Assembly: GCF_002218195.1 (NCBI RefSeq)
Contig: NZ_CP022336.1
Location: 3,157,001 to 3,221,000, forward strand
DNA length: 64,000 nucleotides
DNA from: Sphingorhabdus sp. SMR4y
GTDB lineage: Bacteria > Pseudomonadota > Alphaproteobacteria > Sphingomonadales > Sphingomonadaceae
Direction: 5' to 3'
Shown: piece by piece, positions 1 through 16,827 of the stretch
Numbering within the stretch: the first letter of the stretch is position 1
Layout: each line of letters begins with the position of its first letter
Notes under the pieces: generated by a model
Database searches by the model: none
What the model saw: the letters and a program-made list of their open reading frames with translations, nothing else
Told to the model about the DNA's origin: nothing
Position numbers and translations under genes: made by a program

Positions 1-253
1 TGACATCGACTTTGCCGGCTTTTATGTCACCGAGAAGCTGGGTTATGGCAGGTCGGTTCATTGAACCGCCAGACCAGCCACCGTCATCATATAGCTCGCA
101 AACGGCTTCCCAGCCCTCACTAGCTTGGCTGAGTATATAGGCAGCACAGGCTTCGCGCTGGGCATCGAGGCTGTTAAAATCCCGTTCCAGACCATCCTCG
201 GTCGATTTGCGGGTATAGATCGCGCAGCGCAGCTTTTTGGGTTTGTCAGACAT
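1..253 (-). CDS. Large serine recombinase, N-terminal part (cut by window edge)
   Basis: The minus strand from the ATG at 253 stays open to the window edge (84 codons). It begins [17 protein letters not shown], the start of the resolvase/invertase catalytic domain; Ser17 in YTRKS is the expected nucleophile that attacks DNA. Further family features are SLDAQREAC and a [11 protein letters not shown] segment. Large serine recombinases integrate and excise phages and integrative elements. The start codon overlaps the stop of the DUF2924 gene by 8 bases, so the two are probably co-translated. The C-terminal DNA-binding part lies outside the window. Confidence 0.93.
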
Positions 254-704
254 AAGCCGATGCCTTGGATTTGTATCCGCTCCGCTTCTTCAATCCGAAA
301 AAGCGAGGGCCGGACCAATGGGCGCCAGTTATCTCTCGGGCGATATGACTGAGGCTCTCGTAGTGGCGCCCCTCAAACTCAAACCCGTCATCACATACCA
401 GAACATGAAAGCTTTTGCCGTTCCACGATCGAACCAGCCTGGTTCCGGTCTTCAACGAGATGGCGTGCATGTAGCCGGCTTTTCCGGTGCGCTCGACGCG
501 TTTGCGAAGGCGCTGGATTTCTCGCTTGGTGGCGCCTGTCAGGCTGCCGTGCACACGTCCCTGCAGGCGATTGGCGATACCGCGCCTGAGCAGGTCTGGT
601 CCGATGTCGGGAGCAGGCAATCGATATGTGTCGCGCCACAAAGCTCGCAGCTGGGCAGGAGGCATTGTCATCAGTTCGGCCAACTGCTGTTCGAGTGCGG
701 TCAT
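246..704 (-). CDS. DUF2924 domain-containing protein
   Basis: This 152-residue protein matches the DUF2924 family: an N-terminal [22 protein letters not shown] helix, a basic middle segment ([16 protein letters not shown]) and a C-terminal stretch with [10 protein letters not shown] and FFGLKKRS. The family is found beside large serine recombinases and DUF3489 proteins in alphaproteobacterial mobile elements; its biochemical role is unknown. The start overlaps the DUF3489 stop by 4 bases (ATGA), and the stop overlaps the recombinase start. A role as recombination accessory or directionality factor is inferred from context only. Confidence 0.88.
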
Positions 705-949
705 GATGCTGCCTGTATCGCGCTTTGATCCGGATTCTGTGTAATCCTGTAGGCCGTGCCATCATCGCCGCGCTGTTCGCGGGTGATAGTAAAGCCTTTC
801 TTGCGCAGGCCAGTCAGGAACGCACGAGCGCTGTGGGTTTGCCATTTTGTGGCTTTGCAAATATCACCAAGAGTTGCGCCTTTGCCTCGGTTTAGCAGCG
901 CAATAACGGTGGCGGATTTGGTTTGGGTCTTGGGCTTTGTCGTTTGCAC
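701..949 (-). CDS. DUF3489 domain-containing protein
   Basis: This is an 82-residue basic protein starting at a GTG (947-949) with GGAG a few bases upstream. A longer in-frame ORF reaches 1078, but the extra N-terminus does not look like this family. The body has an HTH-like fold signature: TKSATVIALLNRGKGATLGD, then ATKWQTHSARAFLTGLRKKG, then GTAYRI. DUF3489 proteins are small, putative winged-helix DNA-binding proteins that sit upstream of DUF2924 and a serine recombinase. It is the first gene of the trio and could be its regulator; that role is inferred. Confidence 0.82.
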   Translation of the reverse strand: MQTTKPKTQTKSATVIALLNRGKGATLGDICKATKWQTHSARAFLTGLRKKGFTITREQRGDDGTAYRITQNPDQSAIQAAS

Positions 950-1286
950 ATTGGGTCTCCAGCATTGGAGCCGGTCTATCCGGCTCTTCCACTGACCCAA
1001 GCCGCGGATGGGATTGAAAACCCTGCGGCGTGTCGCGGTTTTTTGCAGCGACCTCAATAGCAATGCTCGAACAAACACCGAAGTCCAGTGGATTATCCGA
1101 ATTTTGTCAAAAGCGGCTAGTCGGCTAACGCCCCATTTGCGGACGTTCCCGCAACATTTCTCAACTACCCAAACCTGCCATTCAATTAGTAAGTGCTAGA
1201 CGTAAAAATTAGGTGGGGAATTGGTTGGCCAGATCAAACTGGATCAAGTTAGCGAAATGCCGCGGACGGGTTCTAAATGCCCTCCC
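950..1286. other. Intergenic stretch with the trio's promoter side
   Basis: No convincing gene is seen. On the minus strand this segment must contain the promoter of the DUF3489-DUF2924-recombinase trio, and it also contains the end of the exported-protein operon that stops at 1287. The only clear structure is the hairpin at 968-986. The short ORFs here have no family features. Confidence 0.5.
968..986. repeat. Perfect 7-bp inverted repeat upstream of DUF3489
   Basis: GAGCCGG and CCGGCTC are separated by TCTAT. The repeat lies about 20 bases upstream of the GTG start, in the likely leader or promoter of the recombinase trio. It has no U-tract, so it is not an intrinsic terminator; an operator or 5' leader structure is possible. 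Confidence 0.5.
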
Positions 1287-2069
1287 TTACTGCTTGCACA
1301 AACCATAAGCAGAGCGCGCAATGACGCGCGGGTAATCGGGGTGCGCGAGAGTTTGCTCGACGATAGCGAGAAAGGCCGGATAAAGCGCCTGAACGTCTTT
1401 TGCCTGGTTCTTGATCTCGAGCGGTACTGCCGGGTTGGCGGACATGGTACGGGATTCTGTTTCGGTCATTGAAAACAGGATCTCGACGGCTTCGACAAAT
1501 TCACCCGCGGCCACCCGCGATTGCGGAGCGAGCTCGTACATAGAGAGCGTAAACGCTCCCTCCATCACCTTCAGCACGCCCTGTTCACCGTCATGGTCGC
1601 GAGGCAGGTTGATCTCGCCATCGCGGAGCATTTTTCCCCAACCATGAATGGCGTTGGGATATTCGTCGATCGGCAGGAACGATCGGAGATGATAGCCGAT
1701 CTCGGAGGACAGTCCCGCCATTTCCTTGATTGCTTCCGCCTTTGCGGGTGGCCTGCCCTTGGTCGGCGGCCTGCTGGGTCGGGTACCCAATTGTTCCGCG
1801 GCCGGACCGATTTTTCCAATCGTTTCGGAAAGCCATTCCAGCTCCTTGTGGAAATGGGATATGGTGCGGCGATAGTCCTTGTCGGTTCCGGCCGCGCAAT
1901 GTTCAATCGGCTTCCGGTAAAAAGGGGTTAGGTCGATCGGCCCATTGGGGGGCTCGAAATACTCAGCGGGAGGATCGCCTGCCCCAAGCGGTGACCGCTC
2001 CATGGCAACCAGCGTGCCGACCGTAACGGTTAAGACCGCCGCCACGATTATCACCGCTATCTTATTCAT
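1287..2069 (-). CDS. Exported/membrane-anchored protein of unknown function (last gene of operon)
   Basis: About 260 residues, family not recognised. An N-terminal hydrophobic segment (KIAVIIVAAVLTVTVGTLVA) is a signal anchor or uncleaved signal peptide. The rest is hydrophilic and mostly helical, with one Cys near the N-terminus (IEHCAAGTD) and one at the extreme C-terminus (YGLCKQ), the same two-Cys layout seen in two other proteins of this operon. I chose the ATG at 2069; an in-frame GTG at 2078 is possible. The start lies inside the 3' end of the upstream gene (8-base overlap), so translation is coupled. It is the last gene of the run. Confidence 0.78.
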   Translation of the reverse strand: MNKIAVIIVAAVLTVTVGTLVAMERSPLGAGDPPAEYFEPPNGPIDLTPFYRKPIEHCAAGTDKDYRRTISHFHKELEWLSETIGKIGPAAEQLGTRPSRPPTKGRPPAKAEAIKEMAGLSSEIGYHLRSFLPIDEYPNAIHGWGKMLRDGEINLPRDHDGEQGVLKVMEGAFTLSMYELAPQSRVAAGEFVEAVEILFSMTETESRTMSANPAVPLEIKNQAKDVQALYPAFLAIVEQTLAHPDYPRVIARSAYGLCKQ

Positions 2070-3381
2070 TGCGTTCACCAGGACTCACAACCGCGTCATA
2101 TTCGGCGGTAATCTTGCGCTGGATCGTTGCAAATTCCTCGATTGCTTGTGCGAATCCGGTGAGCGGAGCGCGGATCGTGAAGGGCTGGTGGCTGCCATCA
2201 GGCAGCAGGATCGGGATGGTTGCGATCAGCCAGCCGTCCTCAGCCGCTCGAACTTGTCGCCACTCCTCTGTATTGGGGAAGGCCCATAGCCATGACGTGC
2301 TGGTCGCTTCGGCACCGAAACGGCCCGATAGAGTGTCCGGCGGGATGACCGGTAGGGGTGTGGTCAAAGTCGCCAGTCCGCCCTTTGCATCTATTACCGA
2401 GAGCTGCGCTTCGTTTTCGGCAAACAGGCTCTGCGGTAACTCGATCGCAATCCGCAACCGCGGCAGCTGTATGAACGGGCCATAGCGTGGTTCCAGCCCC
2501 AAAGCGCGCGCGGCAGCAGGATCGCCGCCCAGTTCATTCGCCTCGACCGATGCATATTGGGCGGGCTCGACGATCACCTTCCAATGCGCCGCCGACTCCG
2601 TATCCATATCGCTGTCGCCCAGCCAGCCTTGGCTAAGCAATCCTCCTGCCTCGGATGCCGTGCGTCGATAGAGCCGCGCCCAAGCCTGGGACTCAGGGTC
2701 GGGCAATTCTGCTTCGCTCTCGCCTGCTTCATCGGACGCGGGATAGGCTGACCCGTCAAAATCCTGAAACGGCGCCACCTTGAATCTGGACAACGAAATA
2801 CTCTCGCCCTGTGCAGCGAGGATCGCCAGCATTTCCTGCGACAAGGCCTTGCGATAGTCCTGTTCGTCATCAGTCAGGGTTACCCCTGCCGGTGGTCGGT
2901 CCTTCTTGGTTCCGCAAAAACCGTTGCGCGGATTTTCCCCATCGGAACAATAGAGCTCATAGTCAGACCGCAAATATAGCCCGCGGCAATAAGGAAGCAC
3001 CGCAATGCTGACGGCAGCGGCCGCTATATGGGAGCGCATGTCGTCAGACAATGTTGCGCGATACGCGTCGCTAGCCCGGCGTTGATCAACGGCAGGCTCG
3101 CCGGCAACAATCTCCTTCGTTTGCTCCATCCGGGCGGTAACCAGATCGTGCAATTCCGAAATCTTGCGGATATCCTCGTAGGCATTGAAACAGGCCGGCG
3201 CATTGGCGCGGGGGACTGGAAATTCGGCCGGTTCGGTCAAACCGTGACGATCGGCGATCACGGCATAAGGAGAGGCGATCCGAGTGACATTGTCATGTGG
3301 TTCCTGCGCGGCAAGCGGCGTCGCTGCGACGGCTGCCATAAGCGAGACAAAAGACCATCCACCAGAGCGCAGCCATATCAT
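2062..3381 (-). CDS. Secreted protein of unknown function, paralogue of the 686-residue protein upstream
   Basis: This is a 439-residue protein with a clear Sec signal peptide (hydrophobic core SFVSLMAAVAA, cleavage near PLAAQE). No known domain is recognised. It shares an ordered set of features with the protein at 5600-7660: a single Cys in the first 70 mature residues (ANAPACFNAYEDI), then YCRGLYLRSDYELYC, NGFC and PPAGV, and later GPFIQLPRL. The conserved Cys residues suggest periplasmic disulfides. The start codon overlaps the previous stop (ATGA). Function is unknown; co-export with its neighbours is inferred from the tight operon. Confidence 0.82.
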   Translation of the reverse strand: MIWLRSGGWSFVSLMAAVAATPLAAQEPHDNVTRIASPYAVIADRHGLTEPAEFPVPRANAPACFNAYEDIRKISELHDLVTARMEQTKEIVAGEPAVDQRRASDAYRATLSDDMRSHIAAAAVSIAVLPYCRGLYLRSDYELYCSDGENPRNGFCGTKKDRPPAGVTLTDDEQDYRKALSQEMLAILAAQGESISLSRFKVAPFQDFDGSAYPASDEAGESEAELPDPESQAWARLYRRTASEAGGLLSQGWLGDSDMDTESAAHWKVIVEPAQYASVEANELGGDPAAARALGLEPRYGPFIQLPRLRIAIELPQSLFAENEAQLSVIDAKGGLATLTTPLPVIPPDTLSGRFGAEATSTSWLWAFPNTEEWRQVRAAEDGWLIATIPILLPDGSHQPFTIRAPLTGFAQAIEEFATIQRKITAEYDAVVSPGERNE

Positions 3382-4136
3382 TGATCATTCTCCCTTGCAG
3401 CCAAGCAGGCCGCCCACAGCTGCATCTCCAGAGCCGGGGCAAAGCCTTGCCAGTCGACAAAGCCAAGCAACAGCGGTCGCAGCCGTTCATAACTTGCTTC
3501 CACCCGTTCCAAGGCAAGCAGCAATTCGTCCGATTGAATTGCTTCCAATGGCTCGTCGGCCGGTTCGCCAAGCAAGCGCTCCGCCGCGCTTCGTGCCGCC
3601 AGAAATTCAAACAGCGCCGGGCCTGTCGTATCGCCCGAGTCGTCCATCAGGGGCCAGCCGCCGATTAGAGCTTTGCCAAAGGCTGCTCGCAAAGGCGCAT
3701 GGGGCGATGGCACCCCCAGCTGCGAATGCACAGCGCGGATATTGATCGTTTCAATCTGGCCCACCTCGACCCTGCGATGCTGTTCGAGCGGCGGAAATAT
3801 GGTTAGCGCAATTCTGTGATTCTGATCCAGCCATGCGATTAACCGACGCTGGCGCGCATCGTCGAAGTGGGCGCTGCGTTGCCCCTCGGCATCAAGCGCA
3901 CGCGATGGTCCCGATTCCTCCGAGGGCATGAATTTGTCGAGCTCGTAAACCTGATCGCGCAGAAAATCGGCGGCGCGGGGTTCAAATGGTGAGTCACCTC
4001 CCACTGGCGCGCATATATCGAAACGTTCCTCGAGATAATCGATCCAGAGTTCACCCGCTTGGGCGGGGGATGAAATGCACGCCACTGCAAAAGCCGTTGA
4101 GACAAGAATAAATCGAGTCATAAAATTATGTTTCAT
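3378..4136 (-). CDS. Secreted two-Cys protein of unknown function
   Basis: About 252 residues with a Sec signal peptide (FILVSTAFAVACISSPAQAG, cleavage after AQA). The start is uncertain: ATG at 4136 is preferred, with GTG at 4145 or ATG at 4121 as alternatives. The mature part opens WIDYLEERFDICAP and ends LEMQLWAACLAARE, so a Cys lies near each end, as in the proteins at 4805-5596 and 1287-2069. The middle is helical. The stop overlaps the next start by 4 bases. No family is recognised. Confidence 0.8.
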   Translation of the reverse strand: MKHNFMTRFILVSTAFAVACISSPAQAGELWIDYLEERFDICAPVGGDSPFEPRAADFLRDQVYELDKFMPSEESGPSRALDAEGQRSAHFDDARQRRLIAWLDQNHRIALTIFPPLEQHRRVEVGQIETINIRAVHSQLGVPSPHAPLRAAFGKALIGGWPLMDDSGDTTGPALFEFLAARSAAERLLGEPADEPLEAIQSDELLLALERVEASYERLRPLLLGFVDWQGFAPALEMQLWAACLAARENDQ

Positions 4137-4151
4137 TTTCACCACCGGCTC

Positions 4152-4808
4152 TCAGATTTTCGCCTCTGCTTCGGCAATGTCGCTGCATCGCTCCATTATC
4201 TCGGCAAGCCTTCTCTTGATGCGATCGCGTTCGGTCGCGCTTTCGTGCGGCATGTCGAAATAAGGCAGCTGGGAGAGTCGCTTCGAAGGCTCTGTTTCCA
4301 ACGGCATGGAAACCATCACGGTGGGCACGTCGGGATTGGCGGTTTTTCTCTGGTCGATCATGATTCTCAGAACGTGGCTGTTCATCGGCCCATCGCCATC
4401 ACGGATCGCACCATCCATCCCGACAATCGCCAGAACCGGGAAAGGCGCATAGCGGACAAGGCTTTCATCGGGTGTTTGCGCCACCAGCTCGATATCACAT
4501 CCAGAGCCGCCGGCCTGACGCTCGACGACGAAGGATTTCTTGTCGGCGCCGATGATATGGTCGAGATCGCGATCAAGCGCGCCGATCAGCTTGTCATTCT
4601 CAGCCCTATATGCGGCAAGCGCTGCTGGATCGCCAAGATTGACCGGACGTTGGACGGGCGCCGCATCGTCGATCTGGGCGGCATTTACGTCCTCTGGACT
4701 GGCGGTACTATCCGGGACCGCTCCGGTGCCATTCAGCAGCAAGATCAGCGGAATGACCGCGATATTGGCGATGACAATCCACATGATGATCTTGAGGGCC
4801 TTGTTCAT
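4152..4808 (-). CDS. Single-pass membrane protein of unknown function
   Basis: A 218-residue protein with an N-terminal transmembrane segment (IIMWIVIANIAVIPLILLL), a low-complexity linker, and a soluble domain presumed periplasmic. The domain carries GGSGCDIELVAQ and a late Cys (MERCSDIAEAEAKI). The start overlaps the stop of the preceding gene by 4 bases (ATGA), and the gap to the next gene is under 20 bases. No domain family is recognised. It might anchor the otherwise secreted products of this operon, but this is only inference. Confidence 0.78.
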   Translation of the reverse strand: MNKALKIIMWIVIANIAVIPLILLLNGTGAVPDSTASPEDVNAAQIDDAAPVQRPVNLGDPAALAAYRAENDKLIGALDRDLDHIIGADKKSFVVERQAGGSGCDIELVAQTPDESLVRYAPFPVLAIVGMDGAIRDGDGPMNSHVLRIMIDQRKTANPDVPTVMVSMPLETEPSKRLSQLPYFDMPHESATERDRIKRRLAEIMERCSDIAEAEAKI

Positions 4809-5596
4809 CGATCATTCCCCTCGGTTTCTGCTGACTGGCGTGCCCGCCTGTCTTTTGCGTGAGCCTTGCATACGGGGCCAAGGCGACGCTCCAGCGCGTC
4901 TTCGAGCGACGGCGAAAAAATACTCTGTTTGAGCGCCGGCATGAATGCGTCAAACGCCTCGTCGAGCGCGCCTTTATGCTCGAAAAAATCCGGAGCGGTC
5001 GCGCCGCTGGCAAGCGCGAGAGCATCATCTTCAAGATTACCAAGCGCCCGGATGAAGGCCGCTCCCCGCGCACCATTTTCCTGATGGTCCGCGGTGAGAT
5101 AATTTTCCATCAGGGCGGTCTTCATTTCCGACCCTTCCCAGTCGTAGGCCGGCACCGATCGCGTGGCGAACCGGTCGGCGAGAGCCGGGACGTCCATCGA
5201 CCGGTTGAAATGGGGGAAAAGCTCGCCCACAAATACCATCAGCCGTTGCAGATCCATCTTGTACCGATCGGCCCGCTCGCGCAGCTCGCTTCCTTCTGGC
5301 AGCGGAGTCTTACCGAAATTGGCGTCGTGAAGGTTCATTTTCCAACCGATCGCACGGCCATGAACATCGAGATCATACCAGGCGCTTTCGAAACCGGCGC
5401 GGATATCCTTGGCGCGGGCATCGATCGGCGCGGTGCACAGGGCGTCAAGATTGTCGTGATCGATATAGCGCGCCTCGGCGGTCGAGGGTGCCGACAGCAG
5501 GACCAATGCTGCAATCAATGCGCCTGCAGCCTGTTTTGCTTTCGACGCAATGGGTGAAACCAGTGACATGGGTTCGCGTCGGATTATTTCTGCCAT
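4805..5596 (-). CDS. Secreted two-Cys protein of unknown function
   Basis: Up to 263 residues. The Sec signal peptide runs through AAGALIAALVLLSAPSTAEA; the ATG at 5569 (MSLVSPIAS) may be the true start rather than 5596. The mature protein opens YIDHDNLDALCTAPIDARA and ends LERRLGPVCKAHAKD, which resembles the opening and closing segments of the protein at 3378-4136: an ID motif, Cys-Ala/Thr-Pro, and a terminal Leu-Glu...Cys helix. The gap to the upstream gene is only 3 bases. Function is unknown. Confidence 0.8.
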   Translation of the reverse strand: MAEIIRREPMSLVSPIASKAKQAAGALIAALVLLSAPSTAEARYIDHDNLDALCTAPIDARAKDIRAGFESAWYDLDVHGRAIGWKMNLHDANFGKTPLPEGSELRERADRYKMDLQRLMVFVGELFPHFNRSMDVPALADRFATRSVPAYDWEGSEMKTALMENYLTADHQENGARGAAFIRALGNLEDDALALASGATAPDFFEHKGALDEAFDAFMPALKQSIFSPSLEDALERRLGPVCKAHAKDRRARQSAETEGNDR

Positions 5597-5599
5597 TGC

Positions 5600-7660
5600 T
5601 CAATACCATCCGCTGCTGAGATAGCCCGGTGTCAGTCGCGGAATTTCGACGGGGCGATATTCCGGCATCTGGATGCCATAGGTCAGGAAGCGTTCCTTGG
5701 GTGTCATCTCGCCCGAACCGCTATTGTCCGAATATCGGGGCGGCACAGAACGGCGACGGCGATATTGCGGTACCTTATAGGCCGGCGTACTGGCGCTCGC
5801 ACTCTGCGCATTGCGGTTCGCAACCCGGATATTGTTGTCGGCAACCCTTTCTTCGAACCGGTTAATCTCTTCAGTCCCGGATTGGATATATTTGTCCCAT
5901 TGCTTTTTGACATCATATATCCGGTCCCGCATCAGGTCCGCATCTGCCGTCCGGCGAAATTCCCACAAAGTTGATGAAATCCCGCTCAATTTTGCCTTCG
6001 CCACATTCGCCTTTCGGTACCAGTTTCTCATGCAGGTCTGAACTGCCGTAGCGTCGGCATTATTCGTAGCCGCTGCCCGCTGCCGGAGATCGTCATAGCT
6101 GGGGAAATTCCCGCATCCATGGGGGGCCGGGCGTTCATTGGCCAGCACGGCACTGGCTTCCAGCAATGTTGCCTTGAGCTTCGCCTGTTGCCGGACCCGA
6201 AACTGTGCATTGGCGACGGCATATTTGGCATCAGACTCCGCCTTCTCTCGCGCCAGACGATCGCTGGTCTCTTTGGCTTTTGCAGCGATTGCGACGAGGG
6301 ACTGATCCGACTTTCTGAATATATCGGCCACATAATCACGGAAATCGCCTGTGGCACCGTGCAATCCATATTCGAAGGTCACAGCATCGATTTTGCCATC
6401 CTCGACCATCATTTCGACCTCGAACAGAATATCCTTGGCATCGGCATGGGTCAGGAGGGCGATATCGCGAGCGGTCGGTATCATCGTCGCGTGCGTCACA
6501 TAGCTGTTGTAGCTCGACATTTGCGGCATGCCATCGGGGGCCTGGCCCATCACCGCCGCATTTTCGAGCGGATGGACGGTTCCATCCCAGAAGCGGACGC
6601 TGAACCGGCCCATATGCTCGCGCAGGAAGACATCATAGGCATACATCTCGAAATGCAGGCGCGGATACTGAAGGAATTCGCCGACTTGCGGCTTTACACC
6701 GATGTCCGTTGCAATGGACTTCAGGACAGCGGTTTGGTCGGCGTTGAAATTGTCGGCCAGCTCGCGCACCAGTTCGAAATTGAACTGGAATGTTCCGAAT
6801 CTCGCCGTGTCTTTTTCCGGTCTGGCGGAGTTGGTGAGTTTCAGCTTTTCAACTTTCGAACTGACCACCATGACGCCGCCTTTTCCCATCCAGTCCAGCA
6901 TGTCGCGTTCAAATTCCGCTGCGCTGTAAATGGTCGAGCGAATTCGACCGTCAGAACCGATGACCGTCCGCAATAGGGGACGCTTGATATCGGCTGGAAT
7001 CTTGTTTCCGGTCACCCACGATCGCCAGCCATTGTCGATCAGAAAGTCGAAGCCGCGGGTCCGGACCGCGCCGACATAATTCCAGGCCAGGCTATAGGCC
7101 AGGGCAGCGCGGTCTTCGCTGAAGCTGACGCCGGGCAAGCCGCCTTGCCTGACGGCACGGCAAAAGCGGTTGTTCTCGTCCGCGCCGATGCGGTCGCAAA
7201 CCTGCTCGACGGCGGGCCGGTAATAGACGCCCTGACATTTCGGAATATTCCGGTCGAAGGAAGTTGCGCGGCGGCGAATTTCTGCCTCGGCGCTGGCCAG
7301 TTCCGACAGCGCTTGCTGTCGCGATTTCGCCAGCTGGTCGTCGGACAGACCCTCGGTCCGGAACAACGCGATCGATTCTGCAATCTTGGCCTTTGCCGCG
7401 CTCAAGTCATCGGGAAGCCGGGTCAGGCTATATTGATATTGATAGGCCAGCGCGCAGGGTTCGTGATCCCATTTGGCATTGGCGATTGGCGGCTTGGCCT
7501 TGTCGGAAGCCGCAGCCTCCTGCTCCGAAAGACCGGCGCCGTAAGGATTGACCAGTCGATATTCGACGAACCGCGCATTGTCTCGCCAATTCTCCTGCGC
7601 CAGCGCAGGGGAGGCAATGGCGAACCCGATGGCGACGAACAAAAGACCGATTAATTTCAC
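5600..7660 (-). CDS. Large secreted protein of unknown function with coiled coil
   Basis: A 686-residue protein with signal peptide (LIGLLFVAIGFAIASPALAQ). It starts at GTG 7660 with AGGGAGAA about 8 bases upstream. Family motifs shared with the 439-residue paralogue are CALAYQYQYS, KCQGVYYRP followed by VEQVC and RFCRA, PGVSF, and FLQYPRLHFEMY. The second half adds a charged, Ala/Lys/Arg-rich helical segment that looks like a coiled coil (AKAKETSDRLAREKAESDAK region), further Cys residues and a Pro/Tyr/Arg-rich tail. It is the first large gene of the operon. No known domain is recognised. Confidence 0.82.
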   Translation of the reverse strand: MKLIGLLFVAIGFAIASPALAQENWRDNARFVEYRLVNPYGAGLSEQEAAASDKAKPPIANAKWDHEPCALAYQYQYSLTRLPDDLSAAKAKIAESIALFRTEGLSDDQLAKSRQQALSELASAEAEIRRRATSFDRNIPKCQGVYYRPAVEQVCDRIGADENNRFCRAVRQGGLPGVSFSEDRAALAYSLAWNYVGAVRTRGFDFLIDNGWRSWVTGNKIPADIKRPLLRTVIGSDGRIRSTIYSAAEFERDMLDWMGKGGVMVVSSKVEKLKLTNSARPEKDTARFGTFQFNFELVRELADNFNADQTAVLKSIATDIGVKPQVGEFLQYPRLHFEMYAYDVFLREHMGRFSVRFWDGTVHPLENAAVMGQAPDGMPQMSSYNSYVTHATMIPTARDIALLTHADAKDILFEVEMMVEDGKIDAVTFEYGLHGATGDFRDYVADIFRKSDQSLVAIAAKAKETSDRLAREKAESDAKYAVANAQFRVRQQAKLKATLLEASAVLANERPAPHGCGNFPSYDDLRQRAAATNNADATAVQTCMRNWYRKANVAKAKLSGISSTLWEFRRTADADLMRDRIYDVKKQWDKYIQSGTEEINRFEERVADNNIRVANRNAQSASASTPAYKVPQYRRRRSVPPRYSDNSGSGEMTPKERFLTYGIQMPEYRPVEIPRLTPGYLSSGWY

Positions 7661-7733
7661 AGCTGGTTTCTCCCTTTAATTCCCGTCTCTTGCGTGCCTA
7701 GCACGGCAGCGGCTGATGTCGAAATTTGATCGT

Positions 7734-8147
7734 TCACGGATAGCCTCTGGTAAACGGCCGTCCGCGCGGGACGCAGGGCCGGCCGTCGAAAGCAGCATCC
7801 CATGTGCCGAATAGGCTGGCATTGCGGCCGTCGAGATAGAAGGTCGCATTATATCCCTGACCACCATTGGCGTGCCAGGGGCACAAGGCATTGCCCCGAT
7901 AGATATTCCCGCGACGACCCTGCCGGCGGCGGTAAATGTCTCGGCGTTGTTCAAGACAGTCCTGATCATAATCGATAATCCGGTCCGCGCGATCATAAAA
8001 GGAACAGGCCTCATAATCCCTGTCATCCAGCCGCTGGGCCGATGCGGTCGAGGGATAGGCGAGCCACATTGTCAACCCTGGGATCGCTGCCCCGGCAATG
8101 CGGACAAAGCCGATTGATGGCGCCATCAGGAAGGCAGATCGCGACAC
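7734..8147 (-). CDS. Small secreted Cys-containing protein of unknown function
   Basis: A 137-residue protein. A GTG at 8147 overlaps the upstream surroundings tightly; an ATG at 8126 is an alternative start. It has a hydrophobic signal segment (FVRIAGAAIPGLTMWLAYPS) and a probable AXA cleavage region (STASAQ). The mature part is rich in Arg, Tyr and Asp, with four Cys (YEACSFYD, QDCLEQRR, ALCPWHA, RPCVPRG). No family is recognised. It lies between the 89-residue protein (1-base spacing) and the 686-residue protein, so it belongs to the same transcript. Confidence 0.72.
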   Translation of the reverse strand: MSRSAFLMAPSIGFVRIAGAAIPGLTMWLAYPSTASAQRLDDRDYEACSFYDRADRIIDYDQDCLEQRRDIYRRRQGRRGNIYRGNALCPWHANGGQGYNATFYLDGRNASLFGTWDAAFDGRPCVPRGRPFTRGYP

Positions 8148-8148
8148 G

Positions 8149-8418
8149 TCAGTCTTTCGTCCGAATAGTCAGGTCAACGGTGCAGACGTGGTGATTGACG
8201 TACTTCTCAACGCAACGGCACGGGCTGGTCGAAACAATATCCTTTTCGGTCTTGCCGGTTTTCGTGATACGGATGGCCGCTCTGCAGGCAAGCGGCTCGG
8301 TCATCGCGGAACCTTCGACCGGATAAGTTTTAGTTCCGGCATGGGCTGGCGTAGAAACCGTCATGGCAAGCAGTAAAGCGAGCAGCATTGCCGGAAGAAC
8401 TTTGGTATTTCGCATCAT
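8149..8418 (-). CDS. Small secreted protein, four Cys (paralogue of the next gene upstream)
   Basis: An 89-residue protein with a strong signal peptide (AMLLALLLAMTVSTPAHAG) and a good ribosome site (TTAGGAG, 5 bases before ATG 8418). The mature part has LACRAAIRI, then SPCRCVEKY, then CTVDLTIRTKD. This matches the 88-residue neighbour in order and spacing: Cys-x-x-A, then C-x-C, then C-x-V-D...KD at the C-terminus. Two disulfides in the periplasm are likely. Function is unknown. Confidence 0.78.
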   Translation of the reverse strand: MMRNTKVLPAMLLALLLAMTVSTPAHAGTKTYPVEGSAMTEPLACRAAIRITKTGKTEKDIVSTSPCRCVEKYVNHHVCTVDLTIRTKD

Positions 8419-8482
8419 TTGTCTCCTAATTCATTCGGTCTAATTTGAGTGGGCCACTATCTCATGAGTTCGAATTGGATTT

Positions 8483-8749
8483 TCAGTCCTTCAGATAGAC
8501 ATCGACATTGCAGTCATACCAGATGACTTGCCCGCCACCTTCCCGCGAACATTGGCACGGACCAAAGCCGCTGATCCGGTCGCTGCCATAGATTTTGATC
8601 GCGCTGTTCTTCGCTTTGGAACAGGCTTCAGATCGCGTGTCACCAATTGCGTTGGTGTTGTCGACACCGGCGATGGCAATGGTCGGCCATGACGACAGGA
8701 TCAATACACCGGCCAAGATGGCGCCAGGCTTTCGGCATGATGGGTTCAT
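8483..8749 (-). CDS. Small secreted protein, four Cys; first gene of the exported-protein operon
   Basis: An 88-residue protein with signal peptide (GAILAGVLILSSWPTIAIAG) and ribosome site GAGGATG upstream of ATG 8749. The mature part has EACSKAKNSAIKIYG, then GPCQCSREGG, then WYDCNVDVYLKD, paralogous to the 89-residue protein downstream. It is the first gene after the transmembrane regulator; a tandem 10-bp repeat lies about 100 bases upstream. Function is unknown. Confidence 0.78.
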   Translation of the reverse strand: MNPSCRKPGAILAGVLILSSWPTIAIAGVDNTNAIGDTRSEACSKAKNSAIKIYGSDRISGFGPCQCSREGGGQVIWYDCNVDVYLKD

Positions 8750-8845
8750 GGTTCACATCCTCTACGACGCTGCTTCGCGTTGATCGCGATATGGCGTGTC
8801 GAGCCCATCCACCCTGAAAGCTGTGATCAGTCTTTGCCGAACCCA

Positions 8846-8873
8846 CTGAAAAATTCTGAAAAATTCTGAATTT
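8846..8873. promoter_or_regulatory. Tandem 10-bp direct repeat, candidate regulator binding site
   Basis: CTGAAAAATT occurs twice head to tail (8846-8855, 8856-8865), followed by a partial third copy (CTGAATTT). It lies between the winged-helix/TPR regulator gene and the first exported-protein gene, about 100 bases upstream of the latter's start. OmpR-type winged-helix proteins bind tandem direct repeats about one helical turn apart, so this is a plausible operator for the adjacent regulator. The link is inferred. Confidence 0.45.
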
Positions 8874-8914
8874 CCCAGTTTTCCTTTCATTTTTAGTAGC
8901 TTGCCTGCCGTCGG

Positions 8915-10789
8915 CTAATTGGCCGCCATATCCTTCACAAGCCTCTTGGCATCCGCGAGCAGGGGGTAGGATTGGGAAATTTCGGAGTGCTGTAGGATTT
9001 TGAGGCAGCTGTCCGCCTTTTTGGCAGCGAGCGGTCGCTTCTGCTTCCGCAATGCCAGCCGGGCTTCTAGACACAGGCTGCGGGCATACCAGGGATGATC
9101 TGTTCCGAAACTGTCTCTGAGTGCCGATTGGGCCAATTTGAGCTGCGTCTGCGCCGCTTCGTCATGCTTCGCTTCGACCAGGGTTTCTGTCCAGCGGAGG
9201 TAGAACCAGCTCTGTTTGGCCGGTCGGCCATAGAGCGCGGCTTCGCCATCCCTTTGCGCCTCGATCATCAACTTTGCGGCATTGTCGGTCTGGCCGATCT
9301 TCGCTTCCAGCGCAGCCAGTTCCGTCTTAGTATACAGGGTCCAGAAATGGTCGGCTCCCAGCTGTTGCTGATAGATCGGCACAATATTGTTCAGCATGGC
9401 GCGCGCCTGGCCAAAATTGCGCTGCGCCACATGGACCAGCGCCAGGCTATATTGCGGAGACAGGGATTCGATATGATCGGCTCCGAGCCGAGCGTCAAAA
9501 ATCTTCTGTGCCTTTTGCAGTTCAACCACAGCCTCGTCTGTACGACCGGCATCGATCAGAAAGTCACCATAATCGGCATATGCCCATGCCGTTAACGGAT
9601 GGTCGTCCCCGAATTGTTCGACGCGCATTTCGATATGCGTTCGAAACGCCGCTTCTGCGGCAGGAAAATGAGCCAGTTTCCGTTCGGACAGGCCAAGAAA
9701 CCAGTGCGCGTCTGCCAGCAAATGGGGTGCTAGACCGTCGGGCCTGTCGACCGCCTTGCGCAGCTCGTCGCGGGCGGCGATATAGTCGCCGGTTTCAAAT
9801 GCCATTTTCGCGCGATAGACCCGTGCCTTGCTCATCCGTTCCGAATCGCGTGCCTCGGCTCCCGTTACCGCGCGCTGGCAAATTCTGGAGCCACGCTTAG
9901 TCCTGCCCGCAAGCCGCAATTGCTGGCACAGATCGGTATCGATCCGGACAAATATGGGATCGGACGGCGGGAGGTGGATTTCGGCATATTCCCGCGCCGC
10001 ATCGAGATGCTTTACGGCCCGGCCATATTCGCCCCAGCCGCTGACCGCTTCGGCCATCTTGAGGTGGAGGGGTACGAGCGAAGACGGAAAATCGGCAAAT
10101 CGCGTGTCGATCGACATGGACAGCTTGTCGACCACTGCACGAAAGTCGGGATCAAATTTCTCAGCAGCATAGGGGTCACTGGACGAAATCAGTTCACCAG
10201 ATATATAGGCGACCAGCGCATCTGCTTCGGCGTTCCGGTCCGCGCTTGCCTTGGCCGGCCAGTTCTCCCAAGCCAGATATAGCGTAAAGCAACCCAACAT
10301 TCCGACAATGATCCCGAACATCGCTGCCCGGCGAGACTTGAAGACATTTCGGAGCCGCTTAAGAGGGAAAGACTCTCTGCTTGGAATTTTTGCGGCTGGC
10401 CTCTTGGCCGCCGGATGGTGGGCTTGCTCCCACTTCGCTTCTCCAACCAACTTATAGCCAAGTCCGAAGACGGTTTCGAGCAGATGTTTTTCCTTGCCGA
10501 GCGCGTCGCGCACCCGACCGATGGCTTTCGCCAGAGAGTTTTCATGGACGATCCGCCCCGACCATCCCGCCTCGATCAAATCGTCCTTGGATACCAGTTC
10601 ACCACAGTTTTCGAGCAAGACCGTCAACAGCGCCGCAGCCGTTCGGTCCATGGAAACCGTGCCGACGGCGGACTGGACAAGGCAGGCATCCGGGAAAAAC
10701 TGTACCGAATGAAATTTACAGGAACGCAATTCTGTCAAATGCTGCCCAAACCTCCCTTTTTCCCCCTCCGGACCCACGGGTGAATTCAT
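8915..10789 (-). CDS. Transmembrane winged-helix transcriptional regulator with periplasmic TPR domain
   Basis: About 624 residues. I chose ATG 10789 (MNSPVGPEG); a GTG at 10828 would add 13 residues. From the N-terminus there is an OmpR/CadC-type winged helix (LVSKDDLIEAGWSG, then HENSLAKAIGRVRDALG, then FGLGYKLVG), a basic Pro/Ala linker, one transmembrane segment (AAMFGIIVGMLGCFTLYLAW), and then about 430 residues of helical TPR repeats (ALVHVAQRNFGQARAMLNNI and similar) predicted to be periplasmic. CadC-like proteins sense outside the membrane and bind DNA directly. It sits immediately upstream of the exported-protein operon in the same direction, so it is the obvious candidate regulator. 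Confidence 0.87.
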   Translation of the reverse strand: MNSPVGPEGEKGRFGQHLTELRSCKFHSVQFFPDACLVQSAVGTVSMDRTAAALLTVLLENCGELVSKDDLIEAGWSGRIVHENSLAKAIGRVRDALGKEKHLLETVFGLGYKLVGEAKWEQAHHPAAKRPAAKIPSRESFPLKRLRNVFKSRRAAMFGIIVGMLGCFTLYLAWENWPAKASADRNAEADALVAYISGELISSSDPYAAEKFDPDFRAVVDKLSMSIDTRFADFPSSLVPLHLKMAEAVSGWGEYGRAVKHLDAAREYAEIHLPPSDPIFVRIDTDLCQQLRLAGRTKRGSRICQRAVTGAEARDSERMSKARVYRAKMAFETGDYIAARDELRKAVDRPDGLAPHLLADAHWFLGLSERKLAHFPAAEAAFRTHIEMRVEQFGDDHPLTAWAYADYGDFLIDAGRTDEAVVELQKAQKIFDARLGADHIESLSPQYSLALVHVAQRNFGQARAMLNNIVPIYQQQLGADHFWTLYTKTELAALEAKIGQTDNAAKLMIEAQRDGEAALYGRPAKQSWFYLRWTETLVEAKHDEAAQTQLKLAQSALRDSFGTDHPWYARSLCLEARLALRKQKRPLAAKKADSCLKILQHSEISQSYPLLADAKRLVKDMAAN

Positions 10790-10925
10790 CGCTGCGCATC
10801 GGGTCTCGGGCGTATAAATGTTCCGCACCCATACCGGGTTGGTTCAAACAGTCGACGCTTCATATTTTGATCGTGAAATACGAAAGAAAGCAAGTTATTT
10901 CAACGATTACCAAGCTTCAGAAAGG

Positions 10926-11549
10926 TCAACCTGACATCTTGATCAATTTGTTCAGCGCCTTTTCCACTAGCGTCCTGTTTGTGCCCAGCTTGATCCAGTT
11001 CGGCAGGTTTGCGGTCATAGTCTCGTGGGCTGCGTCCCCGGAGCGCTTGCGTAGGCCATCTGCGAAATAGTTCTGCAAGACTTCGGCATGGGCGCGGTTA
11101 TAGGCCCATATATATCCCTTTGCAGTTTCCTCGACCAGATATAGAAGCGTACCAAAATAGGGCTCCCTTACATCTCCGGCGCGATGATATGGCACCCAGC
11201 GGGCCTCGATCTCGTAGCTTTCGGCGCATGTCGGGCAGGAGCCATTGAGCTTGTCATCAACAAAGGTGGGTTTTTGAGCCGCGTCGCGTTTGTAAAGCGG
11301 AGGTCTCTGGTTGTTTCCGCATTTACGGCACCGGGGTGGCTCCGTTGGAACTAGCGCCGTGCGGCCATACCAGTCAGCCAATTCAGCTGCTCGTTCGAAA
11401 CTTGTCCCGACCGTTCCATATAAACGTCGATTGGTGCGGTTGTGGCTAAGATTGCAGCAGTCGCAACCCAAGCGGACGCCACCTGATATATTTGCAGGCT
11501 TTTCGCACTGAGGGCAGATTACGACAATATCATCGTCAATTTGCTGCAT
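10926..11549 (-). CDS. Zinc-ribbon protein of unknown function (TFIIB-type ribbon)
   Basis: About 207 residues from ATG 11549 (MQQIDDDIVV); an upstream in-frame start at 11585 is less likely. Three CxxC-type metal sites are visible: VICPQCEK paired with GCDCCNLSH, RCRKCGNNQ, and GSCPTCAESY. Such proteins probably bind structural zinc; the molecular function is unknown. The C-terminal half is helical (GYIWAYNRAHAEVLQNYFAD). It is transcribed in the same direction as the regulator, about 140 bases upstream of it. Confidence 0.75.
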   Translation of the reverse strand: MQQIDDDIVVICPQCEKPANISGGVRLGCDCCNLSHNRTNRRLYGTVGTSFERAAELADWYGRTALVPTEPPRCRKCGNNQRPPLYKRDAAQKPTFVDDKLNGSCPTCAESYEIEARWVPYHRAGDVREPYFGTLLYLVEETAKGYIWAYNRAHAEVLQNYFADGLRKRSGDAAHETMTANLPNWIKLGTNRTLVEKALNKLIKMSG

Positions 11550-12085
11550 CTGGTTCCGCTTTTCTCGGCTCGAGGGGGACGGCAATTATGAGAAATAATT
11601 ATGGTAAGGTCAAACAGAGGAAAATGGGAATTTTAAACTCCCTCTATCGCTTATTGGCGAAAGATAGATTATGTCGTTAGTCAGTTAGAAGGAAGTAGCA
11701 CGCGCATATTGACTCTTTTCAACGTCGGCCTTTCATTACACATCGAAAAGTTTTGGCGGACTACAACTGGTACCGTGTGTCAACCAAATTGGAATCGGGA
11801 TGTAACGGCGGGAATGAGGGCGCGAAGCTGTAAACCAACATTCCTACGCTAGTGTCCGCTAGCGCTATCTGGGCACCCATAAGCAGACGGTCGCAAAGCC
11901 ACCCAGAAGCCGACGTTCTAGCTAGCCAAATTCTATGTCCGTTTCGCGCCCTCATCTCGGCCATCCGACCAGCCTGAAGCAGGCCCCAAAAATCGGGTCT
12001 TCATTCATGTAGCTGCTCCCGACCAAGTCTTGTTCGTCAATTGCTTGGAAAACTATTGATGCTACTTCAGCGCTTCAACAAACCT
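11550..12085. other. Intergenic stretch, no supported gene
   Basis: Between the zinc-ribbon gene and the CHAT gene I see only short ORFs without family features (for example minus strand 11761-11964). The segment 11590-11780 looks AT-rich by eye. It must contain the promoter of the zinc-ribbon gene. No terminator hairpin with a clear U-tract was found after the CHAT stop at 12086. Confidence 0.45.
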
Positions 12086-14860
12086 TCACTTTGCGGAGCC
12101 ATCGCCAACCAGCGAAAATGGAGCCCAGGCGTTGGGGTGCGCCCAAGAGTCAGCTGCTGAATCGCGCGACGGATCGTCGCGGATTTCCTTCATCGCCTGC
12201 TGGAGAGCGGATGCGCGTGTAAGCGGGCTTTTTCCCGTAGTCAGTTCGACCGTGCGCACCGTCATTCTTGCAGCAACGGCGTCACGCACGGGCCAGTGAG
12301 AAACGAGCAAATTTTCTGCGCCAGCAAAAAAGAAAGCACGCGCCAGACCGGATAGTCCCGCCGCTCCAGAGCTGCCGTCGCCTGCTGCCGTGTTGCATGC
12401 AGACAAGATAACCCACTCGGCATCAAGATCAAGAAAGGCGATCTCCGACATCGCGAGATAGCCATCGTCATTCGAAGTGGCAGCCGCTGGGGGGGTGAGG
12501 ACCAAGCCGGGCTCAATAGCGCCATTAATCTCGCCAGCTAAAAGTCCATGTGTCGCGAAGGCCAAGACGTCGGCGTCCAATCTCCGCGATTTGACATTCG
12601 TTTCCGTTGCTCGATCGCTTAAATAAAGACTGTTGTCCGGCGATCCAAATATCTGAGACAAATTCGTTAGCTCTTCAGCGGTGCCAGGCAGTCGAGCCAG
12701 CGAACGCAATTCATCCAAAGCGATTTTTGTTTCGTCCGTGCCTATTCCACCGGTTCGAAAAACATTTCGCAGCGATGGCGCGTGGTTGCCAGACCTTCGG
12801 CGATGCGCAGAGCCACCTCGCGTATTTGCATCACCGTCAAGGATAGGGTCGCCAATTCCGATAAACTTGTTTCTGGTCGCGTGGTTATCCCCGGCCCTGT
12901 GCTTACGAAGAAAAAACAATGTCTGCAACGACGGTAAAACCGAAAAGCTCAACTGATTTGACAGCCAACTGGCACTTCGCAACGTTTTCGGATCGCCAGT
13001 CCTGCCCTGCGGAATTTCGTCTACCAGCAACCCCAATGGAAGCGACGCGAGCGGTCCGTCCGCCACAACAAAAACATGATCGACATCATCCCGATTGAGG
13101 CCAGAGAACAACTGGTCATAAAGAAATTTTGCCTGCGCAAAGGAGTACGGATAGGCCCCTTTATTTGCCATTTCATCCATCCAAGAAACAATCTCGGCCG
13201 GTGATGCATTATTGGGCGCACCTACGTCCCAGAGAAGCCGGCGAACCGCCGAGTTTATTTCTTCAGGCGTAGCCGACGTCCGTTTCCAGACATGATGGCC
13301 GTTTGCGTAATAGAGTATCTGGGTCGAGATCTCGGTCGGCACTACCATGAGCAATGCTTCACCTGGCCTGAGGAGCTCGTAAGGCGTGTCGATGTCGATG
13401 GTTTTTGATCCCAGAAAATCGAAATATTCTGGGAATATCTTCCGGATCCTATCCTCATTCCGGCGGATTGCATCGCCGTTATGTATTAGTGCAATTCTGA
13501 ATTTTTCAGACTCGGCTCCTCCGTCCCCTTGAGCAGCTGCATGTTCCGCTTGAAGCTCTTCCCTTTCGATAAGCATTCGCTCGCGGGTGCGCACGAGTTC
13601 ACCAGATGCTCCGGAGGCACTGCGGCCAATCGCGGAAACGATCGCTCGATCTGCACTATTGTCGAATGATTGCAGCATCGAACGAAAAACACCCGGGCTA
13701 TGGTCGGCGAGTTCCAGAGCATCCATGCTCGAGCCGGCTTCATCGGCCTTCGCATAATACGCGTCAATCAGCAGACGATGGACTGCGTGATTACCATTCT
13801 CGCGCTTGAAGCCTCCGATTTGAGATTGGTCAGTTGCAGCCGCTTGGAGGGGGCCAAGAGCAAGATCGCGTTTTGCGGGCTGCCTTAATAGAGCCAGTCC
13901 TAGCCTTTGATTGATCCGTTTTCGTAAAGGAAGGTCCGCACCGGTTCCATCCAGCGCAGCGATAGCAGAACGAAAATGTACCTCAGCGCTCTCTGCTTCG
14001 CCCAAACCGAGCAATACAGTTCCGAGGGAAGCCTGCGACCTCGCAACATCCGTACGGCGAACGCCATACTTTTCAGCTAGCGTCTTCACAGCTCGCTCGG
14101 CATAGGGCTTGGCCGCATTATATCGGTTGCGCACCGCCAGCGCATTCGCCAAGTCAGCAGCACTGATCGCTCTCGCAATTTCGTTGCCTGTATCAAGTCG
14201 TTCGCGCTCGGCGAGAACCAGTGCAAAAGTCTGCTCCGCTTCATAGACGCGGTTCAACTGCATAAGTGCGCGACCATATTGCTGCAGTAGATCGATTGTA
14301 ACCGGATGATCGGGTCCCAGCGCGTCTTTCGCGCGGCCCACAGCAGGCGCAAGAATCGACAAAGCATGATCGGGCAGACCGATTTCGATCAACACTCCGG
14401 CGTATCCCGTCAGGCTTACTAGCGTATCGGGATGAGACGGCCCGATTAACTTTGTTCGGTTCTGGAAAGCACTTTCATAATGGCGCTTGGCATATACAAA
14501 AAACCCGGATTGAATTGCTGTTTCACCAAGGGCATGTTCCATGTCGAACTCATCGGGATGCGTGCCCTGGTAAACATAATGGCGAAAGCGCTGTGCCCAG
14601 TGGTAGCTGCCGTATGCCTCGAGCCAGTCCCCCTTTTCCACCGCATCGCGCGCATCAGCCGCCGCACGGTCGGAAGCAGCCTGTCCGTCGTCAGAACATT
14701 TGGCACTGAAGGCTGCGTAAATTAACGGAGCATTGGTTCCATCTGGTTGGTTGATATTAAGCGGCAAGCTTGCGGTGTAGCAAGCGCCGATGTTCGATGG
14801 TTTGTTTTTTGATCCTTTCTCGTTTTTTGATGATGGCGAGTGCTCTGCCGAAGTAGGCAT
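12086..14860 (-). CDS. TPR-CHAT putative cysteine protease, 5' end replaced by an IS element
   Basis: The ORF is 924 codons. Residues about 75-330 are TPR-like helical repeats with Tetratricopeptide_10-type motifs (GPSHPDTLVSLTGYAGVLIE, GPDHPVTIDLLQQYGRALMQ). The C-terminal third is a CHAT domain with the conserved His in FATHGLLAG (residue 771) and Cys in LSACNTAAGDG (residue 822), followed by HWPVRDAVA. CHAT proteins are caspase-fold peptidases often fused to TPRs. The first 49 codons lie inside the IS3 element (left end near 14714), so the native start, and probably a signal peptide, is missing. Expression from a promoter reading out of the IS is possible. It may therefore be a truncated gene. 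Confidence 0.85.
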   Translation of the reverse strand: MPTSAEHSPSSKNEKGSKNKPSNIGACYTASLPLNINQPDGTNAPLIYAAFSAKCSDDGQAASDRAAADARDAVEKGDWLEAYGSYHWAQRFRHYVYQGTHPDEFDMEHALGETAIQSGFFVYAKRHYESAFQNRTKLIGPSHPDTLVSLTGYAGVLIEIGLPDHALSILAPAVGRAKDALGPDHPVTIDLLQQYGRALMQLNRVYEAEQTFALVLAERERLDTGNEIARAISAADLANALAVRNRYNAAKPYAERAVKTLAEKYGVRRTDVARSQASLGTVLLGLGEAESAEVHFRSAIAALDGTGADLPLRKRINQRLGLALLRQPAKRDLALGPLQAAATDQSQIGGFKRENGNHAVHRLLIDAYYAKADEAGSSMDALELADHSPGVFRSMLQSFDNSADRAIVSAIGRSASGASGELVRTRERMLIEREELQAEHAAAQGDGGAESEKFRIALIHNGDAIRRNEDRIRKIFPEYFDFLGSKTIDIDTPYELLRPGEALLMVVPTEISTQILYYANGHHVWKRTSATPEEINSAVRRLLWDVGAPNNASPAEIVSWMDEMANKGAYPYSFAQAKFLYDQLFSGLNRDDVDHVFVVADGPLASLPLGLLVDEIPQGRTGDPKTLRSASWLSNQLSFSVLPSLQTLFFLRKHRAGDNHATRNKFIGIGDPILDGDANTRGGSAHRRRSGNHAPSLRNVFRTGGIGTDETKIALDELRSLARLPGTAEELTNLSQIFGSPDNSLYLSDRATETNVKSRRLDADVLAFATHGLLAGEINGAIEPGLVLTPPAAATSNDDGYLAMSEIAFLDLDAEWVILSACNTAAGDGSSGAAGLSGLARAFFFAGAENLLVSHWPVRDAVAARMTVRTVELTTGKSPLTRASALQQAMKEIRDDPSRDSAADSWAHPNAWAPFSLVGDGSAK

Positions 14861-16126: not shown

Positions 16127-16211
16127 TACGATGAAACCAAAACACTCCTTAATTCACAACATCAATTTGGTGACATAGGTGCTGACGGGGAACAAGTATG
16201 ACAAATAGCGA

Positions 16212-16248
16212 TATAAAAGGAGCGAATGGCCCCCCAGCCACTCGCTCC
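16212..16248 (-). terminator. Intrinsic terminator of the marR gene
   Basis: On the minus strand GGAGCGAGTGGC pairs with GCCATTCGCTCC around a G-rich loop with one mismatch, followed by TTTTATAT. It lies about 60 bases after the MarR stop codon and about 50 bases from the right end of the IS element. Confidence 0.75.
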
Positions 16249-16305
16249 ATCTGATCCAACGGGAGAGAAGGATCAGAAACAGTCAGACTTAAGAACGTGA
16301 GCTGT

Positions 16306-16779: not shown

Positions 16780-16791
16780 GATAGCGGCTAT

Positions 16792-16827
16792 ATAGTAAAT
16801 TTAGTGTATTATAAAGCCCTTTACTAT
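16792..16827. promoter_or_regulatory. Divergent promoter with candidate MarR operator
   Basis: ATAGTAAA (16792-16799) and TTTACTAT (16820-16827) form a perfect inverted repeat. Between them, on the minus strand, lies TATAAT (complement of 16808-16813), about 30 bases upstream of the marR start. A third related half-site (complement of CACTATAC, 16833-16840) is adjacent. This layout fits autorepression and co-repression of the hydrolase operon. Binding is inferred. Confidence 0.55.

Follow-up and report, generated by a model that had tools for sequence, protein, structure and literature searches.

A rare set of nine predicted exported proteins behind a ToxR/CadC-type regulator with tetratricopeptide repeats on a tRNA-Phe island of Sphingorhabdus

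Regulators of the ToxR/CadC family, as described for CadC of Escherichia coli in the part of PMC5430869 consulted, combine a winged helix, a single membrane helix and a C-terminal sensor region. In CadC the sensor is an alpha/beta domain joined to an ARM-repeat domain (PMC9214523, in the part consulted), and the target is cadBA. The same part of that source describes co-component systems, among them ToxR/ToxS and VtrA/VtrC, in which the membrane regulator is paired with one fast-evolving exported partner. A second point of reference is provided by the IalB proteins (PF06776; 3DTD), exported alphaproteobacterial proteins that include the IalB-domain protein RgsG of S. meliloti, which the consulted portion of PMC7327166 presents as an essential periplasmic protein of the growing pole with unknown molecular function. 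Here we analyse a 64,000-nucleotide stretch of the Sphingorhabdus sp. SMR4y genome (NZ_CP022336.1, positions 3,157,001 to 3,221,000; hereafter the window), which carries nine consecutive minus-strand open reading frames (ORFs) at 1287-8749, transcribed from g1 to g9 and preceded by the gene of a 637-residue regulator (Table 1). We read this locus, with a probability of roughly two-thirds (0.68), as a regulated exported-protein cassette in which a ToxR/CadC-type sensor would drive a set of envelope proteins.

In Pfam, the regulator matches Trans_reg_C (E 4.3e-11, 43.2 bits against a cut-off of 26.2) and TPR_12 (E 1.6e-22), and its profile matches include the DNA-binding domain of CadC (5ju7, E 5e-5), other OmpR/PhoB-type DNA-binding domains and the tetratricopeptide repeats (TPRs) of kinesin light chains. 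One strong internal hydrophobic stretch follows the DNA-binding domain (best hydropathy window at residue 168, 2.04), which suggests that the TPR region is periplasmic. The preliminary description of a transmembrane CadC-like regulator is borne out by the combination of Trans_reg_C, one membrane stretch and TPR matches, and the nine genes lying behind it in the same direction are confirmed by the ORF list, Pfam and hydropathy. Its account of several overlaps of 4-8 bases holds in part: g5/g6 and g7/g8 overlap by 4 bases, whereas the g8/g9 overlap is 17 bases and the remaining gaps among the nine genes are 1-73 bases (from reg/g1 to g8/g9, the spacing is 165, 64, 1, 73, 3, -4, 6, -4 and -17 bases). 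The GC content at third codon positions is 0.59-0.67 in g1-g9 versus 0.70 in the TonB receptor gene that lies beyond the locus.

The locus resembles the ToxR/CadC family in the predicted three-part architecture of the regulator, in the position of its gene next to the likely target operon and in the repeated candidate half-sites upstream of that operon. It differs from CadC in its sensor, here a kinesin-light-chain-type TPR solenoid, and in its likely targets, nine uncharacterised exported proteins. As with ToxR/ToxS and VtrA/VtrC, an exported-type gene, g1, comes next downstream of the regulator in the same direction; in VtrA/VtrC and some others, however, the partner gene overlaps the regulator, whereas a 165-base gap separates the two here, and nine exported genes stand in place of one partner, which is lipocalin-like in those systems. 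Literature searches for CadC with tetratricopeptide in Sphingomonadaceae, and for the combination of ToxR-like and TPR, found nothing on those terms.

Relatives of the locus are very rare in the genome sets searched, which are draws from the family, order, genus and class and do not hold every genome of those groups. A single-sequence search with g4 hit 2 of 249 family genomes, namely its own genome and G167/L003 (E 6e-4), the latter rejected as a chance match because the ORF list there has no neighbouring genes of the kind; a search with g8 hit 1 of 32 genus genomes, its own. The g4/g8 profile at E 0.01 matched 4 of 396 genomes of the order, comprising the own genome, Tsuneonella flava MS1-4 (G516, NZ_PHSO01000013.1) and two weak matches, G329 (E 0.0046) and G467 (E 0.0056); G329/L014 was rejected, the matching stretch lying within a 659-residue frame that reads as an ABC ATPase. 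An improved g4 profile, A4 (E limit 0.001), matched 3 of 397 family genomes, namely the own genome, T. flava MS1-4 and a third genome, G603, as well as one genome out of 11 from the genus to which T. flava belongs and 1 of 385 class genomes (the own). A contig scan with g4 alone gave nine pattern stretches and no relative, and one with alignment A4 gave one relative, T. flava, among the at least 599 stretches listed. The regulator profile, counted for matches at its E limit of 1e-40, hit 3 of the 397 family genomes, the same three as the g4 profile, and since identical genomes are hit by both profiles, the link between regulator and g4 is far firmer than proximity alone would make it.

Conservation of gene order, the absence of which the preliminary description had named among the things that would refute its reading, is found in two other genomes: the core order of regulator, small cysteine-containing gene or genes, g3, g4 and helical exported genes is kept in all three loci, and the genes downstream have strongly diverged. 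In T. flava, the regulator (2492-4330) is followed by small cysteine-containing genes, a g3-like gene (5630-6043), a 138-residue gene, a g4-like gene, an anchored protein that matches SH3_3 below the threshold (E 0.0012), three exported-type genes, here called Lh, Li and Lj, and then cytoplasmic-type genes, of which the last matches HEAT, likewise below the threshold (E 5.6e-4). The order in G603 is alike, except that there is one small cysteine-containing gene and the SH3-like gene is missing. The window and these two loci are about 38-40% identical for the regulator (579 aligned positions with T. flava), 41-44% for g3 and 28-29% for g4; the identity of T. flava to G603 amounts to 72% for the regulator, 76% for g3, 49% for g4, 70% for Lh, 56% for Li, 66% for Lj and 41% for the 138-residue gene. 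The four cysteines of g3 are invariant in all three sequences, and g1 is weakly similar to the T. flava gene at 5270-5587 (E 4e-4, the value of a single comparison). Because g3 and g4 have clear homologues in the same order in two other genomes, g5 has a profile-level match and g1 a weak one, the row g1-g9 amounts to more than ORFs that follow one another by chance. In these two other loci, a small protein and a HEAT-repeat-like protein come after the exported genes (L019 12559-14562 and L020 3492-4882); we take them to resemble immunity proteins, and neither has a Pfam immunity match.

The gap between the regulator and g1 holds a triple TTCAG direct repeat, TTCAGAATTTTTCAGAATTTTTCAG, at 8846-8870. 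Winged helices of the OmpR/PhoB type bind to direct repeats that are spaced by roughly one turn of the DNA helix. The pattern TTCAG-N4-6-TTCAG-N4-6-TTCAG has one match in the 3.48-Mb genome and its reversed-pattern control has none, and the triple was absent from all 200 simulated 64-kb sequences (one strand, first-order Markov). Paired TTCAG at N4-6 averaged 0.35 per 64 kb in 60 simulations, with a maximum of 2, and was observed twice, both times within 8846-8870. The gaps between regulator and first gene in T. flava and G603 contain TTTTCAGAAT with further TTTCAG or TTTCAA copies, and AAAGAC downstream of the repeats is common to both. For CadC, two DNA-binding domains are described as binding two target sites in Cad1 (PMC5430869, in the part consulted). 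Control of g1-g9 by the regulator through the TTCAG repeats, as a candidate operator, is a moderately supported proposal.

A hydrophobic stretch opens all nine products (mean 1.36-2.87), export-type N-termini being judged here by Kyte-Doolittle hydropathy over 19 residues and not by SignalP. The N-terminus of g8 is the weakest (1.36); further stretches occur in g8 at residue 119 (1.6) and in g6 at residue 117 (1.37). Behind the hydrophobic N-terminus, an AxA motif occurs after residue 21 in g4 and after residue 20 in g8. Cysteine counts after residue 30 are 4, 4, 4, 6, 2, 2, 2, 4 and 2 from g1 to g9, all even, and g5, g7 and g9 have in common one early and one late cysteine, a layout that does not in itself establish homology among the three. 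Similarity between g1 and g2 is weak (phmmer E 0.006-0.009 in a 12-protein set). By sequence only, all nine products appear to be exported or membrane-anchored, and at this level the export-type N-termini support the periplasmic or cell-surface system that had been proposed. None of the nine reaches the cut-off in Pfam, where one match is listed (g9, E 0.28), or in NCBIfam (best E 0.035, g5), and none has a PHROG match at E 0.1. The earlier statement that no domain is recognisable therefore stands for the sequence libraries (Pfam, NCBIfam and PHROGs), but not for structure prediction, where a low-confidence model suggests an IalB-like fold for g4 and g8.

The two largest products, g4 and g8, are paralogous (BLASTP E 4.5e-7; g8 compared by hhalign with the g4 pair, E 3.3e-9, probability 96, the E-values of hhalign here and below being those of single comparisons). 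Cysteines 69, 142, 155 and 167 of g4 and 64, 132, 145 and 156 of g8 have like spacing; all four are paired in the two-sequence alignment, and the last three in the four-sequence alignment. When the low-confidence model of the g4 core was compared with known structures by VIA-align, Bartonella IalB (3dtd_D) ranked first (Z 9.3, root-mean-square deviation 3.9, 136 of 145 residues aligned), and the next beta-sandwich rows scored Z 6.8 and below. Foldseek returned nothing under E 0.001 for this model; seryl-tRNA synthetases, T4 gp15 and antibody domains came up at E 0.0016 or worse, and the synthetase rows, which cover model residues 40-120 only, were rejected. Neither g4 nor g8 matches Pfam IalB (PF06776) at E up to 1, and a search with PF06776 at E up to 10 gave two candidate places in the own genome, both outside g4/g8. 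Comparison of the g4 family by hhalign with the 14 of 20 places over the IalB cut-off gave E 0.023, with 0.42 and 0.24 for the controls, and the 27 columns concerned lie at the C-terminal motif; the ending of g4/g8 presumably resembles that of IalB. Given that Foldseek found nothing below 0.001, Pfam IalB was unmatched and hhalign reached only E 0.023, g4 and g8 are not IalB members by the available test, and the weak model predicts them to be IalB-like in fold. They are like IalB proteins in being alphaproteobacterial and, by hydropathy and motif, exported, with a predicted beta-sandwich in g4. They are unlike them in their length of 440-690 residues and in an extra N-terminal cysteine-containing region; g4 further carries a long extension at its C-terminus. 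A literature search for IalB in sphingomonads found nothing on those terms.

The g5 family is modelled with confidence as an all-helical bundle (predicted local distance difference test, pLDDT, 84.1; predicted template-modelling score, pTM, 0.82; residues 43-263, four-sequence alignment). Foldseek found no match under 0.001 for this model. The best VIA-align match, the TIP47 C-terminus (Z 10.4, root-mean-square deviation 4.5, 155 residues aligned), is at a level usual for helical bundles and no family was drawn from it; further best rows are designed bundles, bacterial ligand-sensing domains and cytochrome c'. By hhalign, g5 matches the T. flava/G603 pair (E 2.8e-5, probability 74), Lh matches g5 at E 0.0053, and other pairings within the set of Lh C-terminus, Lj and Li give E 9e-13 (probability 98) and E 9.6e-5 (probability 59). 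The Lh C-terminus, Lj, Li and g5 thus appear to form one helical family.

The operon lies within a 28-kb variable region that starts at a tRNA-Phe (GAA) gene, the tRNA itself being upstream of the window. An SLC6-type symporter homologue (SNF family) was used as a landmark; matches at E 1e-50 occur in 30 of the 32 genomes of the genus, and at full-length identity of at least 86% in 9 genomes including the own, most of the others being about 50% identical and possibly sitting elsewhere. From this symporter to the TonB receptor gene (window 26754-29204), the distance is 548 bases in G256 and 643 in G267, two of these nine genomes, which have a short empty site, versus 28.7 kb here. DNA identity with G256 stops, at the left edge, at the CCA end of tRNA-Phe and resumes, at the right edge, near the TonB stop codon. 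In G264, whose symporter is the most similar (95%), the same tRNA is followed by the gene of a serine recombinase with 98% identity to the one here and by a DUF2924-like gene, and then by different cargo. The trio of DUF3489, DUF2924 and recombinase genes was not seen by eye in the ORF lists of the T. flava and G603 loci (14.6 and 17 kb). On both grounds, the operon and the trio are not linked. A literature search on DUF2924/DUF3489 with a recombinase listed three Wolbachia papers. Searched with up to 3 mismatches, the window holds no copy of the tRNA 3' end that could mark the far end of the element. The location of the operon in a tRNA-Phe hotspot, as a cassette on an island, is well supported; of the earlier suggestion that it is element-borne, the variable island is upheld, whereas the association with the recombinase trio is not.

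On the preferred reading, the locus would be a horizontally acquired, self-contained envelope cassette. The regulator would be an inner-membrane protein whose winged helix faces the cytoplasm and whose TPR solenoid extends into the periplasm; by binding the TTCAG direct repeats before g1, it would switch on nine mostly tightly packed genes. The products, all exported or anchored and probably disulfide-bonded, would comprise two small four-cysteine proteins, g3, two large IalB-like proteins (g4 and g8) and helical two-cysteine proteins (g5 by model, g7 and g9 by layout); they would most likely work together, either in the periplasm or on the cell surface, and the TPR domain would sense a signal or one of them. 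Operator binding, co-transcription, disulfides, complex formation and feedback are steps that we infer. The nine products probably constitute a new kind of bacterial cell-envelope system, for which a physiological role in envelope assembly or stress is most likely and an effector role less so. A more specific proposal, which we put forward only tentatively, is a TPR-based co-component system: a new assembly in the periplasm or at the surface would be built from IalB-like proteins and disulfide-tied helical ones, and the TPR domain of their own regulator would read its status directly, so that the products would be both output and input.

Several observations weigh against the regulated-cassette reading. 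The periplasmic placement of the regulator TPRs depends on a single hydropathy peak, and the g4 core model is poor (pLDDT 52.9, pTM 0.43, three-sequence alignment). In the T. flava/G603 pairings tried, which covered some of the possible ones, g6 (which also lacks a Pfam match) and g7 have no convincing homologue; the similarity of g9 to a T. flava/G603 gene is insignificant (E 0.078 and 0.026), and g8 has no homologue beyond the g4 family in the comparisons made. The g4 of G603 is 402 residues long and lacks the C-terminal part, with the match continuing across two TGA codons. Repeat spacing varies, being 10 and 10 here versus about 9, 22-23 and 10-11 by eye elsewhere, and footprinting of the operator is thin, as it draws on the three known loci. 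Near the repeat there is no sigma-70-like site (3 in 900-11700 versus 5.9 expected), terminator-like sites in 900-11700, several of them within the operon, are at chance level (14 versus 11.9), and more than one transcript is possible given the gaps of 64 and 73 bases and the 165 bases after the regulator.

Exported, fast-diverging proteins could also be aimed at other cells, as a secreted effector or toxin cassette whose downstream cytoplasmic-type genes protect the producer. The downstream part does diverge fast, the last exported gene shares 4 bases with an extra gene in T. flava and is followed by that gene in G603, and HEAT matches fall just below the Pfam cut-off (E 9.1e-5 in G603, 5.6e-4 in T. 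flava). The window locus, however, is without such downstream genes, no toxin, secretion or immunity family was found in Pfam, nor in PADLOC for the eight proteins given to it, and an effector set would not usually include two large IalB-like paralogues; we consider this explanation unlikely. Improbable, too, is a set of functions serving the mobile element, such as surface exclusion or attachment, and not a host system. An island at tRNA-Phe adjoining a serine recombinase would suit it, but the recombinase occurs without the operon in G264 and none was seen with the other two operons, no g4 or g8 relative was found in 72,556 plasmids or, by peptide-pattern scan, in viral contigs (28 stretches), and none of the nine has a PHROG match. 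A phage, plasmid or defence origin found no support in PHROGs, plasmids (g4 and g8), viral contigs or PADLOC (eight proteins).

It is very improbable that unrelated orphan genes without a common role were gathered on the island. The lack of homologues for g6, g7 and g9 and the very sparse distribution (3 of 397; 1 of 385) would agree with such a collection, yet the core order with the regulator is kept across three genera, the genome sets of regulator and g4 are identical, the frames are intact and the export-type N-termini are uniform. What sets the regulated exported-protein cassette apart is a ToxR/CadC-type regulator with a TPR sensor tied to a compact, rare and fast-diverging exported set without a sequence family. 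If confirmed, it would offer a tractable model of a membrane transcription factor that senses envelope proteins, would show that the IalB fold, which is poorly understood, also occurs in large proteins of several parts, and would place an envelope system among the cargo that tRNA-linked islands carry in sphingomonads.

Table 1. Features of the regulator and exported-protein locus and of the adjoining island module (window coordinates)
Feature	Position	Strand	Description
reg	8915..10828	-	ToxR/CadC-type regulator: winged helix at residues 58-127, one membrane helix at about 168-186, C-terminal TPR region
Candidate operator	8846..8870	-	TTCAG three times, in 10-base steps
g1	8483..8749	-	88 residues, small predicted-exported protein, 4 Cys after residue 30
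g2	8149..8418	-	89 residues, small predicted-exported protein, 4 Cys, weak g1 paralogue
g3	7734..8147	-	137 residues, predicted exported, 4 Cys conserved at all three loci
g4	5600..7660	-	686 residues, predicted exported, IalB-like region and C-terminal extension
g4 residues 203-445	6326..7054	-	Predicted IalB-like beta-sandwich, low-confidence model
g5	4805..5596	-	263 residues, predicted exported, all-helical model, two Cys
g6	4152..4808	-	218 residues, predicted N-terminal membrane anchor, two Cys
g7	3378..4145	-	255 residues, predicted exported, two Cys after residue 30 (early and late)
g8	2062..3381	-	439 residues, predicted exported, paralogue of g4 core, four Cys at like spacing
g9	1287..2078	-	263 residues, predicted N-terminal anchor, two Cys
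DUF3489 protein	701..1078	-	Island module outside the operon; Pfam E 1.4e-19
DUF2924 protein	246..704	-	Island module outside the operon; Pfam E 4.5e-42
Serine recombinase gene start	1..253	-	Island module; gene runs on beyond the window

Other cargo lies on the regulator side of the operon. At 10926-11585, between the regulator and a CHAT gene, a 219-residue protein with several CxxC pairs (zinc-ribbon-like by eye) has weak Pfam matches only and two PHROG matches near E 0.003. The CHAT gene itself (12086-14860) encodes a TPR-CHAT protein (CHAT E 2.5e-44), and its first ATG lies within an rve-type transposase gene (14757-15809), at the 3' end of the latter; the native 5' end of the CHAT gene was probably lost to the insertion sequence. 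An efflux pair of the resistance-nodulation-division type, recognised by eye, occupies 16200-24000 in a block that is 90% identical at G264 C2:3543780 and is also present at two places in G256; because it is found elsewhere in congeners, this block seems to move independently of the operon. At 24060-26242, still inside the 28-kb region, a DUF5681 protein adjoins a fusion of ParB-N and N6_N4 methylase, a phage-like pair. The tRNA-Phe hotspot of G264 (L051 1-8000) carries, by eye, a peptide natural-product-like cluster with asparagine-synthase-, sulfotransferase- and kinase-like frames.

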